Positions 9,691 to 19,022 of a stretch of 23,536 bases of DNA are shown in pieces. The notes beneath the pieces are model-generated. The model searched no databases. It saw only the letters and a list, made by a program, of their open reading frames with translations, and had not been told where the DNA came from. Numbering within the stretch: the first letter of the stretch is position 1; the number at the start of each line of letters is the position of its first letter. The DNA is from a virus, in IMG/VR virus record IMGVR_UViG_3300042924_006373, positions 1 through 23,536 of that record. One strand, 5' to 3'. The position numbers and the translations under genes are program-made.

Positions 9691-10833
9691 TCAAACGATG
9701 GTAAAAGCAGTGGTAATGAAGTCCTTGTTCAGGTTGGCAAAACCAGCGTACAGCTGCCAAATCAGAATGATAAAGCGGCTGAAGTCATCATTGTTGTTGA
9801 TGAGCACCTGAGCGTTAGGACCACCAATGCCAACGCCAACGGCCTGAGGACCGAAGAACAGAGCAGGAGGAGTGTTGTGGGAAACAGCACCAAGACCGTC
9901 GCCAATATCAACGGTAATGGTCTTAGAGGGAAAGTTAGTGGATTCGTAGAATCGCACACCTTCAAACACAAAGCCAGTCGGCATGGTGGGCTCACCACCC
10001 ACAAACTGGGCTTGACCATACTGACCACCGCCATAGATAGCAGCATTGGGGTTCATGCCGCTCATCAGTGGGTTACCGGGAGCAAAGCCAGGGTAACGAG
10101 CCACTTCACGGAAACCTTGGTCAGCACGCAGGTCCTTCATGAAGGAAGGATCGGCAATACAACGGTAGTAGCCGTCAGCAAAAACAGGAACGTTACGCTT
10201 ACGCAGGCTTTTGACCACGTCAAGCAGGTCGCTCTTCACGTTAAACTTGTAACGCTCAGAGGCATACTCAGTTGCGGTGTAAGCAGCCAGGGTAGTAGCG
10301 CCTGTTTTAGCGTGGTTATTAGGATAGAAATAACCACCTTGGGTGTCAGAAGACTGACCACGGGACTCGGACTTGAACAGTTCGTCCAGGAACACACGGT
10401 CGCGCCAGCGGCGATAGTCGTCCAGCAGAGTCAGCGAACCGATGGACTGGTGGAACATGTTAAGGTTCCCGGTGTCCAGCAGCAGACGCTGAGCAGTCAT
10501 CAGAGTCTCACGAGCAATTTTGAAAGTGCTCGGGAGGTTTGCATTGTTCGGATCAGCAGGACCAGTGTACTCACGCAGAGACACCAGCACTTTGTCCTTA
10601 ACAATCGAACGGCTGTTAGCAGTGCCGATGGTTTGATCCTGGGTACGCTCACGGTTAGTTTTTGTACCAGGATTACCCCAGAAGCGGTAACGGTCTAACT
10701 GAACAGTTTGACCGGGTTGTTTGGTAAAATCGTGAACAACAACTGGCTCGCAAGCCATTTCCACGATATAAGCCGGGTGGGGACGGTAAAGTTCCGCGCC
10801 CAACAGCTTAGGAAAGTCGTTATCAATAAACAT
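9691..10833 (-). CDS. Probable major capsid protein
   Basis: A 380-residue protein from ATG 10833 with only a weak purine site (GAAGAA). It has its own candidate promoter and a leader of about 100 nt. The size is typical of HK97-fold shells. Features include VLVSLREYTGPADPNNANL, a helical segment LTLLDDYRRWRDRVFLDELF, a possible E-loop-like Gly/Tyr region (GGYFYPNNHAK), FADGYYRCIADPSFMKDLR, and a C-terminal part with GGEPTMPTGFVFEGVRFYES. These last elements resemble the N4-gp56/P22-like capsid families. Codon use is GC-rich: sampled 60-nt lines give 55-63% G+C against roughly a third to 40% in surrounding genes, as expected for the most abundant protein. Synteny (terminase, portal, scaffold, capsid) supports the call; the exact capsid family is uncertain. 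Confidence 0.75.
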   Translation of the reverse strand: MFIDNDFPKLLGAELYRPHPAYIVEMACEPVVVHDFTKQPGQTVQLDRYRFWGNPGTKTNRERTQDQTIGTANSRSIVKDKVLVSLREYTGPADPNNANLPSTFKIARETLMTAQRLLLDTGNLNMFHQSIGSLTLLDDYRRWRDRVFLDELFKSESRGQSSDTQGGYFYPNNHAKTGATTLAAYTATEYASERYKFNVKSDLLDVVKSLRKRNVPVFADGYYRCIADPSFMKDLRADQGFREVARYPGFAPGNPLMSGMNPNAAIYGGGQYGQAQFVGGEPTMPTGFVFEGVRFYESTNFPSKTITVDIGDGLGAVSHNTPPALFFGPQAVGVGIGGPNAQVLINNNDDFSRFIILIWQLYAGFANLNKDFITTAFTIV

Positions 10834-10981: not shown

Positions 10982-11710
10982 TTAAGTATCTTGCGATTTT
11001 TCAGGCTTGTTTGCTTTTTCTGCAAACGCCCTAAGGAATCTACCGACGCCAACACCAGCCAGTGCTGTTGCTGCTGGTGACAGCGCGTAACCGGCAACTT
11101 GATACAAACCAGGTTTACCAGAAACAGCAACACCTGCTTGATTCAAAAGATTTGTACCACGACGTGTTGCTTCTATTTCCGAAAAAATGCGGCCACTATT
11201 ATTTAGATAGTTCATTGCAAGAGCAAGGCCAGTTGCCCGGCGAGTTGACGGGGACAGGGCACTAACCCCAATGGTTGCTAATCCAACAACATTTGGATTT
11301 AGCCCAGTATATAAATTACTTTGAATGTAGTTAGGAGTTCCACCACCTGCTGTAATGCTTTGATGGCCAAGCTCGTGGCCAAGAGTAAACTTACTGGCAA
11401 ATGGATAGTTTAAAGAGATAGCTTTTTTTGCTGAATTAGAATAACTAGCGCCTGTAGGACTAGTATTAACCGTAACGTTTGGCTTGACTCCTGTTTGTTC
11501 TGCAAATTTATTAATAATGTTTCTTGAATCTTCAAAAGTTGAGTAATAAGTTTTTCCTTGTAAATTTGTAGTACGTTTAACAGCTGCACCTGTTTCACGC
11601 AACCCTTCTGTTCGATACTGTTGAACAGCTTGTTTTTGTAACTTTTTAACTCCAGTAAAACCAGCTAAGGCAGCTGCTCCACCAAGTGCAGTTTTAAAAA
11701 TAGAGTCCAT
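10982..11710 (-). CDS. HELGH zinc-metallopeptidase-like protein, copy B
   Basis: A 242-residue paralogue of the preceding gene. The active-site helix is SKFTLGHELGHQSI (H112, E113, H116), and a second motif, SGRIFSEIEATRRGTNLLNQ, supplies E178 or E180 as the likely third zinc ligand. HExGH followed by E-[FI]-x-A-[ST]-RR resembles the YugP-like Zn_peptidase_2 family from memory. Ala/Gly-rich hydrophobic stretches occur at residues 8-20 (LGGAAALAGFTG), 138-153 and 212-225, as in membrane-associated members. It lacks an obvious ribosome site, starts nine nucleotides after copy A, and lies directly upstream of the capsid gene, where prohead proteases are normally encoded. A role in processing the head or internal proteins, or in ejection, is inference. 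Confidence 0.7.
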   Translation of the reverse strand: MDSIFKTALGGAAALAGFTGVKKLQKQAVQQYRTEGLRETGAAVKRTTNLQGKTYYSTFEDSRNIINKFAEQTGVKPNVTVNTSPTGASYSNSAKKAISLNYPFASKFTLGHELGHQSITAGGGTPNYIQSNLYTGLNPNVVGLATIGVSALSPSTRRATGLALAMNYLNNSGRIFSEIEATRRGTNLLNQAGVAVSGKPGLYQVAGYALSPAATALAGVGVGRFLRAFAEKANKPEKSQDT

Positions 11711-11719
11711 TACTACAAA

Positions 11720-12388
11720 TTAAATTTCTGTTAGCGCGTTTTTAAAAGACCTTAAAAACCGTCCTGCAGCAAGGCCGCCAAGTGCAGTCATTGCTGGTGT
11801 TGTGGCGTAGGCTGCTGATTGAAATACACCTGGAGCAGGTGAAACAGAATAACCAGCTTGATTTAAAAGTTTAGTGCCTCGACGGCTAGCTTCTATTTCA
11901 GAAATAATACGCCCAGAATGATTTAAATAATTCATTCCTAAAGCCAAAGTTGTTGCTCGGCGCATTGATGGAACCATTGCTCCAACACCAACCGTAGCCA
12001 AACCAACAACATTTGGATTCAATCCTTTATAAGTATTCTCTTGAATCCATCGAAAAGAATCGTTGCTTCGGCCAATAGACTGGTGGCCTAATTCATGGCC
12101 AAGTGTAAACTTACTTGCGCTAGGAAAACTTAAAGAAATAACATTATCTTTTGTTGATGAGTAACTAGAACCTCCAAGATTAGCAACAACTTCAGGTGCA
12201 GGTTGCTGCGTTGATTTTGTATATTGATCTAAGATACGTTGTCGATCTTGTTCAACAAAAGCACTGCCTGTTTCTTGCAATCCTTTTTTTCGATATTGTT
12301 GAACACTTGATCGTCCTAACTGGTAAGCGCCAACAGCCCCAGCTGCTGCTGCAGCTGATTGAAGTAAGTTTGTAACTGCTGTATTCAC
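11720..12388 (-). CDS. HELGH zinc-metallopeptidase-like protein, copy A
   Basis: A 222-residue protein with a GTG start at 12388. It has the same architecture as the next gene: an Ala/Gly-rich N-terminus (LLQSAAAAAGAVGAYQLGR), a shared VQQYR-[KT]-GL-ETG segment, the zinc site FTLGHELGHQSIG (H98, E99, H102), GLNPNVVGLATVGVGAM, and SGRIISEIEASRRGTKLLNQ (E164/E166). The two copies agree at roughly two thirds of positions over the core (residues 88-214) and diverge between residues 42 and 88. Both keep every catalytic residue, so neither looks like a decayed duplicate. The family resemblance to YugP-like peptidases rests on the two motifs and their order. Substrate and role are unknown; see copy B for context. 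Confidence 0.7.
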   Translation of the reverse strand: MNTAVTNLLQSAAAAAGAVGAYQLGRSSVQQYRKKGLQETGSAFVEQDRQRILDQYTKSTQQPAPEVVANLGGSSYSSTKDNVISLSFPSASKFTLGHELGHQSIGRSNDSFRWIQENTYKGLNPNVVGLATVGVGAMVPSMRRATTLALGMNYLNHSGRIISEIEASRRGTKLLNQAGYSVSPAPGVFQSAAYATTPAMTALGGLAAGRFLRSFKNALTEI

Positions 12389-13174: not shown

Positions 13175-14356
13175 TCATTCCATCACCAGAAGTTTCTGGC
13201 GGAAAACATTTGGATTTTGTTGTGCCATGGACAAATAGCGCCAGGCATTGACAGGATCACGTTCTGCAACATTGCCAAAGTTATTCCAGAAACTTTGGCT
13301 ATCTACAGTACCTTCTGGAACTGGTGGGATGGGTAAAAAGGGACGCTCTAAATACCCGTTGTTATACCCCGAATCATAAGTGGCTCCGTAGTTATTGCCG
13401 TAACTATAGTCAGTTTTGTTATAAATTTCCGGGTTATAGCAATTGTAGTAAGAGTCGTAGTAATAAGTGCCATCTACGTCGTAGTAACCTTGGGGATCAT
13501 AGTAATACCCATCGGCACCATAGAATCCAGGGTTAGAAGAATTAAAGAAAGAATCGTAGTAATAGGTACCGTCTAAATCGTAATAACCTTGAGGATCGTA
13601 ATAATATCCAGCAGCATCATAGAAACCGCCGTCACTATTACCTTCTTGTACAGGATACGGGCCATTGGGACCGAAAAACTCAATAGTGTAATCAGCGAGT
13701 GTGTCCGGATCTGTAAGAATTGATTCGTAAGCCTGATGTTCTGCAGCAAGTTCTTGTAAAAGACCAACAGATTCTTGCAGTTGCCCAGAGCTTTGAATTA
13801 AAGCATCTTCCAGATTGCAAGAATATTCATTCAGAACAGCAGGCGCATCAGCACCAAAGTGGTCAATAACCTCAAGACTTTGTGGACTTACTCCGTTTGC
13901 CAGTAGCTGTTGTGTTGTTATTCCCTGCGATGTTTGGGAATAATTGGGCGAGTAACCCAGGTTGGATGGATAAATCGGGGCTACCGAATTGTTGCTGTAC
14001 CCCACGCTCTGTTGGGAACTGAAGCTGCCCGGGTCGATTCCGCTCATCCCTACGGATTGTTGACCCTGGAACGGGAAGGGCACTGGCGAACTCAGGAGTG
14101 ACACCACCCTGTTGAACGCTTCCTTGTACGGGTTGTCCGCTGTAGGTTGGGCTTGCGGGTACGACTGGATAGGGGCGTAAGGTGCCGCCGAGATCTGGGC
14201 CTGCATCTGCGGGGCTGGCGACGTCGCCGGTTGGTACGGTGCCACCCATTGACTGGTCGTTGCCACCGGAGCTGCTTGTGGAGCCGCGTAGCTGGTCGGC
14301 GGGGTCGAATACTGTTGGGGTGCCGATTGGATCGGCGCTGCGGTATCGGCCTGCAT
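13175..14356 (-). CDS. Scaffold-like capsid assembly protein, overlapping the portal gene
   Basis: A 393-residue protein with a clear ribosome site (AGAAAGAGG, six nucleotides before ATG 14356). The first 160 codons lie inside the 3' end of the portal gene in another frame and encode a Pro/Gln/Ser/Ala-rich low-complexity region. Residues 155-238 are helical (DALIQSSGQLQESVGLLQEL) and lead to ILTDPDTLADYTIEFFGPNG, a motif I associate from memory with scaffold proteins of related phages. Residues 244-309 contain two tandem 33-residue Tyr/Asp-rich repeats. The C-terminus (PVNAWRYLSMAQQNP, then FRQKLLVME) is helical and would suit capsid binding. Scaffolds guide shell assembly and then leave. The position between portal and capsid supports this. 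A virion protein with a Tyr-rich segment is the alternative. Confidence 0.7.
   Translation of the reverse strand: MQADTAAPIQSAPQQYSTPPTSYAAPQAAPVATTSQWVAPYQPATSPAPQMQAQISAAPYAPIQSYPQAQPTADNPYKEAFNRVVSLLSSPVPFPFQGQQSVGMSGIDPGSFSSQQSVGYSNNSVAPIYPSNLGYSPNYSQTSQGITTQQLLANGVSPQSLEVIDHFGADAPAVLNEYSCNLEDALIQSSGQLQESVGLLQELAAEHQAYESILTDPDTLADYTIEFFGPNGPYPVQEGNSDGGFYDAAGYYYDPQGYYDLDGTYYYDSFFNSSNPGFYGADGYYYDPQGYYDVDGTYYYDSYYNCYNPEIYNKTDYSYGNNYGATYDSGYNNGYLERPFLPIPPVPEGTVDSQSFWNNFGNVAERDPVNAWRYLSMAQQNPNVFRQKLLVME
13430..13627 (-). repeat. Two tandem 33-residue Tyr/Asp-rich repeats
   Basis: Two 99-nt in-frame copies encode GFY-A-GYYYDPQGYYD-[LV]-DGTYYYDS, then a variable Phe/Tyr/Asn tail ending NP. Within each copy, YYYDPQG and TYYYDS are themselves related subrepeats. 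They lie in the scaffold-like protein at residues 244-309. Confidence 0.85.
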
Positions 14357-16085
14357 AAGTTACCTCTTTCTGTAAGCTTTCGAGTGTTCTGTAAAGGAAA
14401 GGCGTCATATCGAGACGCGGATCAGCTGCCAGAGGAAGATCCGGGCGCTGGGGATGTGGTGTACGCATCTCTTGATTAATGAGATCAATGAAAGCTGCAT
14501 ACGCTTTTTGTACTTGTCCAACCATTCGGAATGGATAGCCGGAGAGCATTTCTGCAACTTCGTCATCCGTTTTGGAAGGGAACAAATACTTAAGTGCCTC
14601 AATACTATCAACACCCAATTCTTGTAAGTTACGAGTAAAGATAGATTGATTAACTTTATCTTGTGGAGTGTCTTCATAAACAGGACCCATCCAGCGCCAA
14701 AGAACTGTGCGGTCTCCGTCAGGAGCAAGTCCGATAACGCCAGGGGGAATTTCTTTGGATTCAAAAGCTTTGTTTAAAGCTTTATCTAATCCTTTTTCAT
14801 ACTTCTGTTTTGCTTTTTCATGAGCTTTTAAATCCTCTTCTGTAGCATCTTCAGAAAGAACTGGATATTGCAATCCAGATGCAGCAGCAAGTGACTTTCG
14901 GAAGAGTTGTTCTTCCTGATAAATCATTAACTCAAAACAACGGCAAATTCCGTATGTATAAAGTTGCAGACACTTTTTCTTTGCTGTGGCGCTAACGCGA
15001 CCATAAGCAGATTTAATTTCTGTAGCAGTTACGTTAGTAATAGAAAGGTCATCAATACCGCCAAGAGCAAGACGGATTTCTGATCTTAACTGTTCAACGT
15101 AACGTGCTTGGTCAGTGCTAATTGCGTTTGGAGTAATAAAACCAACACGATCAGTTGGTTCCAGGTTTGCAATAACACGCGGTACGCGAAGCCCGCCTCC
15201 AGGTAAACCAATATAACCAGCTTGTTGGCGGTCAACAGGATCCTGTTTAAAGGTTGAACTAGATAAAGAAAACTCAGATTGGAATCCAGATTGGCTAGCA
15301 ATACTAGGACGTTGCACCGCGCCGTCCCGCGCTGTTTCAACAATGTCGTGTTTTGGCCGAGAAGAAAGAAGTGTAGGGTTACCAAAGAAAGAAAGGTTTG
15401 CCCTAATGTTCTTAACCATCTCATCGTGGGCAATAATTTGATTGGATAACCATTCAAATTCGCCACTTCCTTCTGTTCCAAAAGCGTCTGGGTTATTTAA
15501 AACCTCAACGCAAGGAATAAAACCCAGAGTGTTTTCAACAGTTGTATCGCCAAAAGTTAGGTTTGAATCAATAGAATCAAACGTTAACTCTGATTCACTA
15601 TGGAGTTCTTGGATTTTTTCTGGAGTAATTCGTAAACGCATGTAGCGTTTATCAGTCATTAAACCAACGCCACCAAATCCACGACTGGATTTAACTTTAT
15701 AAGCGTAGATAATAATGACTTCTTCTAGGTCTCCATCCGGAGAGTAGTAAGTTCGATAAGCATCTTTATCAAACCAATAAAGCCGGTAAGTTTTTTTAGT
15801 AGGCCGGATGTAAAACAGGCCTTTACCGTAGGCTAAAAATCGGTCCCAGATGGAATCTAAACGAGCATCAAGTTTGTTAAACTTAATGACTTGTTGAATA
15901 AAATCAAACCGCTGCGTACCAAAGTTATCTTGGTTGGGATAAAACTCCACACCTTGCCTAATCCCAAACATTTTCATTTGGGATAGGTGGGCGTTAATGA
16001 GCATTGTGTCTGCTGACCCCGTGGATTCACGGTTAACAACAGCTTTGAGCATTCCTTCTAGAATGGATTGGCTCGACGTGCTCAT
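13872..16085 (-). CDS. Portal protein with a long dual-coding C-terminal extension
   Basis: A 737-residue protein from ATG 16085, without a clear ribosome site. It follows the terminase and AbrB-like genes. The core fits a portal: LDARLDSIWDRFLAYGKGLF (early helix plus 'GKG' strand), VIIIYAYKV, EWLSNQIIAHDEMVKNIRAN, VGFITPNAISTDQARYVEQL, RLALGGIDDLSITNVTATEI and the following helix AYGRVSATAKKKCLQLY, then a long charged helix (EEDLKAHEKAKQKYEKGLD). It forms the dodecameric vertex through which DNA enters and leaves the head. The last 161 residues (from about residue 577) are Pro/Gly/Ser/Gln-rich and are encoded by the region that also encodes the start of the scaffold-like protein. That tail is disordered in appearance and ends in basic GKRSKSTKS. 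Confidence 0.85.
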   Translation of the reverse strand: MSTSSQSILEGMLKAVVNRESTGSADTMLINAHLSQMKMFGIRQGVEFYPNQDNFGTQRFDFIQQVIKFNKLDARLDSIWDRFLAYGKGLFYIRPTKKTYRLYWFDKDAYRTYYSPDGDLEEVIIIYAYKVKSSRGFGGVGLMTDKRYMRLRITPEKIQELHSESELTFDSIDSNLTFGDTTVENTLGFIPCVEVLNNPDAFGTEGSGEFEWLSNQIIAHDEMVKNIRANLSFFGNPTLLSSRPKHDIVETARDGAVQRPSIASQSGFQSEFSLSSSTFKQDPVDRQQAGYIGLPGGGLRVPRVIANLEPTDRVGFITPNAISTDQARYVEQLRSEIRLALGGIDDLSITNVTATEIKSAYGRVSATAKKKCLQLYTYGICRCFELMIYQEEQLFRKSLAAASGLQYPVLSEDATEEDLKAHEKAKQKYEKGLDKALNKAFESKEIPPGVIGLAPDGDRTVLWRWMGPVYEDTPQDKVNQSIFTRNLQELGVDSIEALKYLFPSKTDDEVAEMLSGYPFRMVGQVQKAYAAFIDLINQEMRTPHPQRPDLPLAADPRLDMTPFLYRTLESLQKEVTYAGRYRSADPIGTPTVFDPADQLRGSTSSSGGNDQSMGGTVPTGDVASPADAGPDLGGTLRPYPVVPASPTYSGQPVQGSVQQGGVTPEFASALPVPGSTIRRDERNRPGQLQFPTERGVQQQFGSPDLSIQPGLLAQLFPNIAGNNNTTATGKRSKSTKS

Positions 16086-16330: not shown

Positions 16331-17854
16331 TTAATATTCCAACTCCAGCTTGCCTCGCGACATCAATCCATTACAAAGCCACACAAGCGCATCAACGCAG
16401 TCATCGTGCGAGCTAACACCAAAATTAATGATCTCATCCTGGAGTGCTTGGAACTTGCGAAACTTGTTAAAGAAAATTTTGTGCTGTTCAAACAAACCCA
16501 TGATGCCACGGAATCGTGCCAGTTTGTCACCACGGAATCCTTTGACTGGGTGCCAAATAAGATTGTACAGACCGTGCTCTACCTGACAGATCCGTTTAAA
16601 ATCAGCTTCTAGAGATGCCTGGTAAGCGACGGCTTCTGACCAAATATCAACGGTTGAGCCAGTAGGAAAATATTTATCACCTTCTTTGTAAACAATTCCC
16701 CATTCATACATCATTTCCATAATTGCTTCCAGCTTTTCCAGATTACCCATAATCCGGATCCGCTTGCAATCAATAATATAAACTTTGTTTCCTACTCGCC
16801 CGCCAAGTACAAAAACGCTGTAATCGTTGCGCTCACGTATACCAGCAGAAAGATCGACTCCAACACCGAGGGTATCAAACTCTGTAGGAATTTTACTCTT
16901 AATAATCAAATCAGGTGAGATGGAGAGCTCACTGGTTTGAATGATTTGATTTTGATATTGAAAACTAAAGCTAATAGGAGCTTGTCGTTTTCTTTCATTT
17001 AGATATTCTAACGACCACATCTCTGGCCAGTACGAATGTTCTTCTCCTTCTTCATCCAATGTAATGGCTGATTGTACAATTTGAACCCAATCATTGGTTG
17101 GAGTAAATGTGCTGTTGTGAATATCATCATGACGAAAACGTGTACCTAAACAAATAGCTCTCCCACCTTCAAACATAGTTGGAACAATAACTGAGTTCCA
17201 GTTATCTTCCATAGCAGCACGAATATCCCGGTTCTTAATATCATCCGCACTTTTAATTGCGTCATCAATAATACAAAGATGCGAACGTTTTGAGGTCACA
17301 GCACCTTTTAAACCAGCGCAACAAACTGTAAATTCTTCTTCACCAGTGGATTTAATCCCTGCAAACTTCCAATCAATACTCCAGTATTCATTAGAGTTGA
17401 TTCCTTTGGCAATTTTAACCGTTGGAAAAATTTCTTTATATGCTTTACTTTCTTCAATGATTCTTTTGATGGCTGCACTTTTAGGACGTGCAACATCAAC
17501 AGTATAAGAAATATAAAGAATCTTTAATGGTTTTTTATGAAGAGCATGAATTCCAATAGCCCACGCGGTAAATAAACCTAAAACTGTAGATTTGGCTGAT
17601 CCACGTGGCGCCAGAATGTCAATGTTAGGTCCAGCAATACCTAAAAGACATTCGCTATCATCTCCAGTGCAAAGGTAATGATGCCACTCTTTGTGGTGAG
17701 AAGCAGGAGGCTTATCACCTACAACGTCGCAAAAGTAAGCAAAATCTGTTCTGGCTTTTTCAATATCAATATCACTTGTTTTTTTGACAACCTGTTGCTT
17801 TGCACCAGCACGCGCGGTGCGCCGATAAACAGCGTAAAGAGATGTGTTTGCCAT
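16331..17854 (-). CDS. terL: Terminase large subunit
   Basis: A 507-residue protein with a purine-rich site (GTAAGGGG) right before ATG 17854. The N-terminal ATPase has Walker A LAPRGSAKST (residues 81-90), Walker B HLCIIDD (192-198), and the coupling motif ICLGTRFRHDD (234-244). The C-terminal RNase H-like nuclease has GVGVDLSAG (D334), a middle strand VDIWSEA, and HDDCVDALVWL (483-493), whose aspartates should bind metal. It cuts concatemeric DNA and pumps it into the prohead through the portal encoded two genes on. All expected motifs are present and the length is normal, so it should be functional. Confidence 0.93.
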   Translation of the reverse strand: MANTSLYAVYRRTARAGAKQQVVKKTSDIDIEKARTDFAYFCDVVGDKPPASHHKEWHHYLCTGDDSECLLGIAGPNIDILAPRGSAKSTVLGLFTAWAIGIHALHKKPLKILYISYTVDVARPKSAAIKRIIEESKAYKEIFPTVKIAKGINSNEYWSIDWKFAGIKSTGEEEFTVCCAGLKGAVTSKRSHLCIIDDAIKSADDIKNRDIRAAMEDNWNSVIVPTMFEGGRAICLGTRFRHDDIHNSTFTPTNDWVQIVQSAITLDEEGEEHSYWPEMWSLEYLNERKRQAPISFSFQYQNQIIQTSELSISPDLIIKSKIPTEFDTLGVGVDLSAGIRERNDYSVFVLGGRVGNKVYIIDCKRIRIMGNLEKLEAIMEMMYEWGIVYKEGDKYFPTGSTVDIWSEAVAYQASLEADFKRICQVEHGLYNLIWHPVKGFRGDKLARFRGIMGLFEQHKIFFNKFRKFQALQDEIINFGVSSHDDCVDALVWLCNGLMSRGKLELEY

Positions 17855-18363: not shown

Positions 18364-19022
18364 GCACGGAAGGCTGCTCGCGCCTGTGAATAGTCCTGCT
18401 GTTCTTTATAGCGCCTAAACATCTCAAGCTGTTCATTAGTTGTTCGTGTCTCACCGCCGGTTAAACCGATTTGACGTTCTTCACTTTGAGAAGCAACACG
18501 TTGTGTTTCAATAGAACCGCGAGCTTGCTCAGTTGCGGCAAATTTAGTAGCTTCTGCTTGTTGACTTGCAGCAAACTTAGTAGCTTCTGCCTGAGCTAGA
18601 GCACCTTGCAGATTAAACTGTCCTAAACCTAAACGAGTTTCATTGTCAGCTTTTGCTAAGCCCATAGCGGTTATCTCTCTATTTTGGGCATAAGTTGATA
18701 ACCAGTCTTGTTGACCTGCCGTAATTAACCCTTCAATTAATCCTTCATAATTAGGTTGATCAATAGTCCGTACTCCACCTTGTTGTCTTATGTCTCCAGA
18801 TCCTAAATTCTGCCACGCTTTTGAGGCATTAACTGCCTTAGAAGGACCTTTGTCATTTCCTCCTTTTGAAGAACCTCCTTGCTTAGAGCCTCCTTGACTA
18901 GAACCTCCTTGCTTAGAACTTCCTTGACTAGAACCTCCTTGCTTAGAACTTCCTTGCTTAGAGCTTTCTTGTTTAGAACCTCCCTGCTTAGAGCTTTCTT
19001 GTTTAGAACCTTGTTTTGACAT
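18360..19022 (-). CDS. Low-complexity SKQGG-repeat protein with helical C-terminus
   Basis: A 220-residue protein; AAAGGTAATTCAAA precedes ATG 19022. Residues 2-60 are almost only Ser, Lys, Gln and Gly in six-residue units of the type SSKQGG. The rest is helical. Two adjacent 11-residue repeats (QAEATKFAAS, QAEATKFAATE) are followed by RGSIETQRVASQSEERQIGL and a C-terminus, EQLEMFRRYKEQQDY. Such helical repeats occur in internal virion (ejection) proteins. The basic, flexible N-terminus could contact DNA. No family is recognised, and the role is inferred from composition and from the neighbouring proteins. Confidence 0.6.
   Translation of the reverse strand: MSKQGSKQESSKQGGSKQESSKQGSSKQGGSSQGSSKQGGSSQGGSKQGGSSKGGNDKGPSKAVNASKAWQNLGSGDIRQQGGVRTIDQPNYEGLIEGLITAGQQDWLSTYAQNREITAMGLAKADNETRLGLGQFNLQGALAQAEATKFAASQQAEATKFAATEQARGSIETQRVASQSEERQIGLTGGETRTTNEQLEMFRRYKEQQDYSQARAAFRA
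18843..19019 (-). repeat. 18-nt minisatellite coding SKQGG units
   Basis: About ten imperfect 18-nt units (plus-strand core CTTGCTTAGAACCTC) encode the Ser-Lys-Gln-Gly tract. The repetition also keeps another minus-strand frame open over 18803-19075, with a visible KEVLSKEVL pattern, which is a shadow. Unit number is likely to vary between relatives. Confidence 0.8.

Follow-up and report, generated by a model that had tools for sequence, protein, structure and literature searches.

In phage P22, the head genes follow the order terminase, portal, scaffold and coat, and a 13-nt gap separates gene 1 (portal) from gene 8 (scaffold). The P22 procapsid holds 12 portal chains and 60-300 scaffolds, and the scaffold triggers portal oligomerisation and forms a nucleation complex with the portal (PMC9320234). 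In the cyanopodovirus P-SSP7, genes 8 (portal) and 9 (head assembly) stand in the same order and overlap by 1 nt. The scaffold Nu3 of phage lambda starts inside the upstream head gene C; Nu3 is in frame with C, so this DNA is not dual-coding. Terminal overlaps formed by overprinting have been described in viruses, on the same strand and out of frame (PMC8227390, PMC2992710), and in DNA viruses the proportion of overlap declines as genome length grows (PMC2992710).

Here we describe a stretch of viral DNA of 23,536 bases, a record of IMG/VR (referred to as the window), where a portal gene and a probable scaffold gene follow each other as in P22 and P-SSP7. Unlike the P22 pair, they overlap, sharing 485 nt on the same strand and out of frame, like the overprinted overlaps described above. 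Synechococcus phage S-EIV1 has the same portal-to-scaffold arrangement, with an out-of-frame overlap of 554 nt. In the window, the overlap encodes low-complexity, predicted disordered segments, and both frames are under purifying selection. What sets it apart from the known viral overlaps is that both partners are core head genes, and that the tailed phage carrying them has a large dsDNA genome (79 kb in S-EIV1). Overlapping genes are already known, but it is unusual for two core head-assembly genes of a dsDNA tailed phage to share half a kilobase out of frame, and the literature we searched (titles and abstracts, with incomplete coverage) describes no overlapping portal and scaffold genes.

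We consider it highly probable that this is a genuine terminal overlap, same-strand and out-of-frame, which is ancestral, is selected in both frames, and has its scaffold initiated internally within the portal mRNA. With hundreds of sequences available, it provides a naturally replicated test case of two proteins evolving on one DNA. It also puts right the gene annotation in a widespread cyanophage group, in whose one annotated isolate the overlap was missed, and offers an entry point for studying what sets the amounts of portal and scaffold.

Gene layout of the window

The terminase, portal and capsid of the window match those of S-EIV1 (KJ410740.1) at 65%, 53% (52.6%) and 69% identity; in this comparison S-EIV1 is the one close phage record. 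Judged by these identities, with the homologous portal, terminase and capsid in identical order, the window is a member of the S-EIV1-like cyanophage lineage. The original paper on this lineage, cited in PMC5332604, uses the word widespread in its title, and in marine viromes the S-EIV1 group makes up 3.3% of the signal from cyanophages (PMC5332604).

The large terminase gene (16331-17854) adjoins the portal gene, and the capsid gene (9691-10833) corresponds to phrog_1357, major head protein. Our ORF check reproduces the frames of the first-pass annotation, with the portal frame open to 13872 and a second frame, shifted by +1, starting at ATG 14356. Other overlaps between plausible neighbouring genes in the ORF list of the window are short, from a handful of nt to some tens. 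The features of the locus are:

13872..16085, minus strand: portal gene, 737 aa; core at about residues 1-580, tail (577-737) within the overlap; TGA stop at 13872
13175..14356, minus strand: probable head scaffolding gene, 393 aa, by position and predicted architecture
13872..14356, minus strand: dual-coding overlap of 485 nt, out-of-frame (+1); neither frame interrupted in 403 of 407 loci, and both under purifying selection
14363..14367, minus strand: Shine-Dalgarno-like AGAGG of the scaffold, within the portal gene; conserved, of AAAGAGG or AAGGAG type in relatives
14360..14362, minus strand: TAA in the scaffold frame just 5' of the ATG, fixing the 5' limit of that frame
14354..14356, minus strand: ATG start codon of the scaffold (CAGG next), identical in 403 of 403 loci
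14060..14134, minus strand: conserved scaffold residues 75-99, NPYKEAFNRVVSLLSSPVPFPFQGQ, containing a predicted helix (76-89); from alignments and model
13932..14132, minus strand: portal residues 652-718, the overlap centre, clearly selected in both frames by substitution rates
13932..13985, minus strand: C-terminal motif of the portal, GSPDLSIQPGLLAQLFPN, with residues invariant among 46 representatives
14161..14340, no strand: G+C-rich core of the overlap (66%), from composition
14357..14641, minus strand: about 95 portal codons 5' of the scaffold start that vary less at synonymous sites

The scaffold frame begins with AGAGG-TAA-CTT-ATG; a strong ribosome site had been noted for ATG 14356.

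Elsewhere in the window, two adjacent paralogues with a GHELGHQ zinc-peptidase-like motif (10982-11710 and 11720-12388, minus strand) lie between the scaffold and capsid genes. In close relatives there seems to be just one such gene, belonging to either type, and the pair may reflect a duplication or a merger of the two types. We also notice a tandem repeat at 18870-19011, with 9.5 copies of a 15-nt unit (consensus AGAACCTCCTTGCTT).

Portal and scaffold proteins

The portal protein matches phrog_20475 (virion structural) over nearly its full length (4e-215), and matches to the portal profiles phrog_64 and phrog_104 are weak. A Foldseek search of the PDB with the portal model, itself of low confidence (pLDDT 44), returned 18 matches at E<=1e-3. 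All 18 are phage portals, including those of SaPI1, 80alpha, A-1(L), T7 and P-SCSP1u, which confirms the earlier assignment as a portal. The final predicted helix of the core spans residues 561-579 and the overlap starts at codon 577, so on this model the portal fold appears to stop at the start of the overlap, and disorder is predicted for the tail beyond it. Nine residues of the portal's C-terminal motif are invariant in the 46 representatives (G701, D704, Q708, P709, G710, L715, F716, P717 and N718), and the motif QPG.L.QLFPN is kept between lineages whose portals are about 52-54% identical.

The scaffold gene sits between the portal and major capsid genes. Its predicted model shows a 45-residue helix (171-215) and C-terminal helices (353-392), with the remainder largely disordered. 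A further helix, NP[YW]..AFN[RK]VV, is conserved in the N-terminal part. We found no family match in PHROGs, Pfam or BFVD and no viral fold match, and comparison with known scaffolds, including gp9 of P-SSP7, detected no homology in sequence or fold. Hence the first-pass description of a scaffold-like gene stands on position and predicted architecture and not on homology to known scaffolds; on the former grounds, the gene is a probable head scaffold. Both products were described as low in complexity within the overlap, as we also see.

A Tyr/Asp/Gly-rich insertion in the scaffold contains a 99-nt tandem repeat (13421-13618, minus strand; YYYDPQGYYDxDGTYYYD). A comparable Tyr-rich stretch occurs in one relative (L002); the insertion is missing from S-EIV1 and from most of the aligned relatives.

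The overlap is conserved among relatives

We gathered 491 loci from IMG/VR, two MAG contigs and S-EIV1, some of which share a contig. The portal stop is visible in 407 of them, and all but four of these (403) have an overlap of 476-692 nt, representing 259 distinct overlap DNAs. It occurs in three sub-lineages, down to 52% portal identity: the window-like one, the S-EIV1-like one, and a third (L325-L343) whose portals are about 54% identical to that of the window and 74-77% to that of S-EIV1. The scaffold ATG is identical in 403 of 403 loci, preceded at a suitable spacing by an SD-like site (AAAGAGG or AAGGAG). The portal stop shifts by about 200 nt among loci, and the overlap changes in length only by steps that preserve both frames. 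Stop codons in one frame of relatives had been named as the finding that would speak against dual coding, and we observed no convincing stop in either frame.

Judged by their sequences, the four exceptions seem to stem from errors of assembly or sequencing. One locus (L082) has an assembly-type duplication in the portal, in one (L108) about 10 nt separate the stop from the end of the contig, one (L428) carries an out-of-frame deletion, and one (L447) has a lone stop in the portal shortly before the overlap. The last two may alternatively be natural defects. Seven of eight IMG/VR scans, which reached the three sub-lineages, yielded no convincing relative without the overlap. As far as this distribution can tell, the overlap is ancestral to the sampled S-EIV1-like cyanophages.

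Two S-EIV1-like phage contigs (L081 and L082) lie inside the Bacteroidetes MAG QQUU01, where they are probably a contamination of the bin.

Composition and chance openness of the overlap

Our recount bears out the jump in G+C previously counted by hand. G+C reaches 66.1% at 14161-14340 and 58.8% over the whole overlap, extends at 51.9% through 14357-14460, and is 41-42% in the non-overlapping parts of both genes. The clade averages are about 60% for the overlap in each clade and 44-45% for the portal body. In codon usage, both frames of the overlap fit the portal body poorly, the portal frame slightly less so (-0.21 for the portal frame against -0.26, and -0.09 for the portal frame against -0.15).

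When codons were permuted with the scaffold amino acids kept, the portal frame stayed open in 3% of trials for the window and in 3.6% on average for the 46 representatives. Permuting the portal codons instead left the scaffold frame open in 1.3% (window) and 12% (average). The double-open frame of one genome is only moderately improbable by chance. An overlap in 259 distinct relatives, combined with the frame-specific selection estimated from their sequences, is far beyond it.

Both frames are under purifying selection

To measure selection, we counted substitutions by their effect in both frames, following the logic of OLGenie (PMC7531306) in our own implementation, with stops excluded and a transition weight of 3. 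Disjoint pairs (40 in clade A, 31 in clade B, the S-EIV1-like clade) were picked by similarity of the portal body, because picking by overlap identity could bias the rates.

Over the whole overlap, the scaffold ratio NN/NS is 0.34 [0.27-0.42] in clade A and 0.40 [0.31-0.51] in clade B. The portal ratio NN/SN is 0.54 [0.43-0.68] in clade A and 0.74 [0.54-1.00] in clade B, where the upper limit touches 1.00. As a control, the +1 frame in portal codons 1-400 gives 0.92 [0.77-1.09] and 1.01 [0.86-1.19], respectively. In the central ~66 codons, the portal ratio falls to 0.35 [0.22-0.49] in clade A and 0.39 [0.21-0.63] in clade B, with scaffold ratios of 0.35 and 0.38. The scaffold frame stays at 0.3-0.5 in all parts of the overlap. 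The portal linker is weakly constrained (0.74 [0.54-0.98] in clade A, 0.68 [0.42-1.04] in clade B), and 3' of LFPN the portal codons of clade B appear close to neutral (1.56 [0.97-2.39]). The third frame is without the pattern of constraint seen in the two coding frames.

We also evolved the real sequences in simulations. With the scaffold frame alone constrained, the portal ratio is about 1.0 (range 0.80-1.23); with the portal alone constrained, the scaffold ratio is about 1.05; and with both constrained, the ratios come near those observed. An AT-biased mutation alters little, and the observed ratios remain below 1 at transition weights of 1-5. The first-pass annotation had proposed that synonymous variation be compared across the overlap; the rate of portal-synonymous, scaffold-changing substitutions collapses there from 0.462 to 0.097 in clade A and from 0.320 to 0.057 in clade B. 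Its reading of about 160 codons as dual-coding is supported by the open frames in relatives and by the selection in both. By these substitution patterns, purifying selection maintains both the tail of the portal and the scaffold's N-terminal part as real coding sequence, most strongly in both frames at the central 66 codons.

Just 5' of the scaffold start, about 95 portal codons (14357-14641, minus strand) also show lowered synonymous variation in both clades, and a block, GTGTTGATAGcATtGAaGCACT, is nearly fixed across lineages. The +1 frame of this segment is without clear selection, and for the same reason the +1 open stretch at 14405-14764 was rejected as a third coding frame. The segment is possibly a promoter or RNA element.

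Alternative explanations of the overlap

If the scaffold frame alone mattered, the portal tail would be an unselected read-on, its stop having drifted downstream since the G+C-rich scaffold codons leave the frame open. The weakly constrained linker (0.74 and 0.68), the ratio of 1.56 after LFPN in clade B and the ~200 nt variation in the stop position would all suit such a tail. For the central part, however, it is disfavoured by portal ratios of 0.35 and 0.39 and by the conservation of QPG.L.QLFPN between lineages, and simulations with a neutral portal give about 1.0 against the observed value of 0.53. We regard a read-on tail as improbable. The converse, a scaffold whose true start lies 3' of the portal stop, with the open frame ahead of it a mere by-product, has the GenBank annotation of S-EIV1 (AHV82225.1) on its side. 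It conflicts with the low scaffold-frame ratio all along the overlap, with the ATG and SD-like site kept in all 403 loci, and with the conserved helix NP[YW]..AFN[RK]VV, and we find a late start hardly credible.

Conservation of the nucleotides themselves, as a packaging site or a regulatory RNA, would be in keeping with the G+C-rich block and with the lowered synonymous variation reaching ~95 codons 5' of the scaffold ATG. Yet the conservation depends on reading frame as coding predicts and is absent from the third frame, the overlap varies in length only by steps that preserve both frames, and the fold at the scaffold start has z = -0.66; a DNA or RNA signal in place of two proteins is therefore very unlikely. 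The wide overlap of frames also makes it geometrically possible that frameshifting from the portal yields a portal-scaffold fusion as the second product. The conserved SD-like site, the in-frame stop just 5' and the invariant ATG point instead to internal initiation, and by inspection of the consensus we noticed no conserved slippery site upstream of the scaffold start, which leaves a fusion with almost no probability.

Proposed working of the overlap

In our model of two selected frames with internal initiation, ribosomes on the portal mRNA would read on to 13872, giving the ~580-residue core and a disordered tail that bears the conserved QPGLLAQLFPN segment. Other ribosomes would start at the internal Shine-Dalgarno site and ATG 14356 and make a separate scaffold, so that the same DNA would give its disordered Pro/Gln/Ala-rich N-terminus with one helix. 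A good internal start could supply the excess of scaffold over portal, and one message would yield both partners that nucleate a procapsid. In the most speculative step, the tail and the N-terminus encoded by the shared DNA might act in portal-scaffold recognition.

The production of the two proteins had been suggested to be coupled. The portal stop lies about 0.5-0.7 kb 3' of the scaffold start, so stop-start coupling is excluded. Translational coupling by RNA structure finds no support either, as the RNA around the scaffold start is predicted to fold no better than shuffled sequences (z = -0.66). A promoter scan around the portal and scaffold genes gave fewer sites than in shuffles. It is conceivable, though we think it unlikely, that the overlap was fixed for setting the portal:scaffold ratio and for co-located synthesis, with a scaffold-binding tail of the portal and a portal-binding N-terminus of the scaffold overprinted. 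If true, two interacting interfaces would be overprinted on one stretch of DNA.

Annotation of S-EIV1

In the S-EIV1 record the overlap is unannotated. The GenBank protein AHV82225.1 is given a start at 59863, downstream of the portal stop, although its frame, with SD and ATG, already starts at 59287. The annotation thereby omits 192 of the 325 scaffold residues (59%).

We also notice a discrepancy at the capsid gene of the same record (KJ410740.1, 60784-62010; L083/L496). On the plus strand the match to the capsid extends over 60859-61989, and the annotated ORFs there are one on the minus strand (60784-61545) and a truncated one on the plus strand (61540-62010). The major capsid gene of S-EIV1 thus appears to be misannotated.
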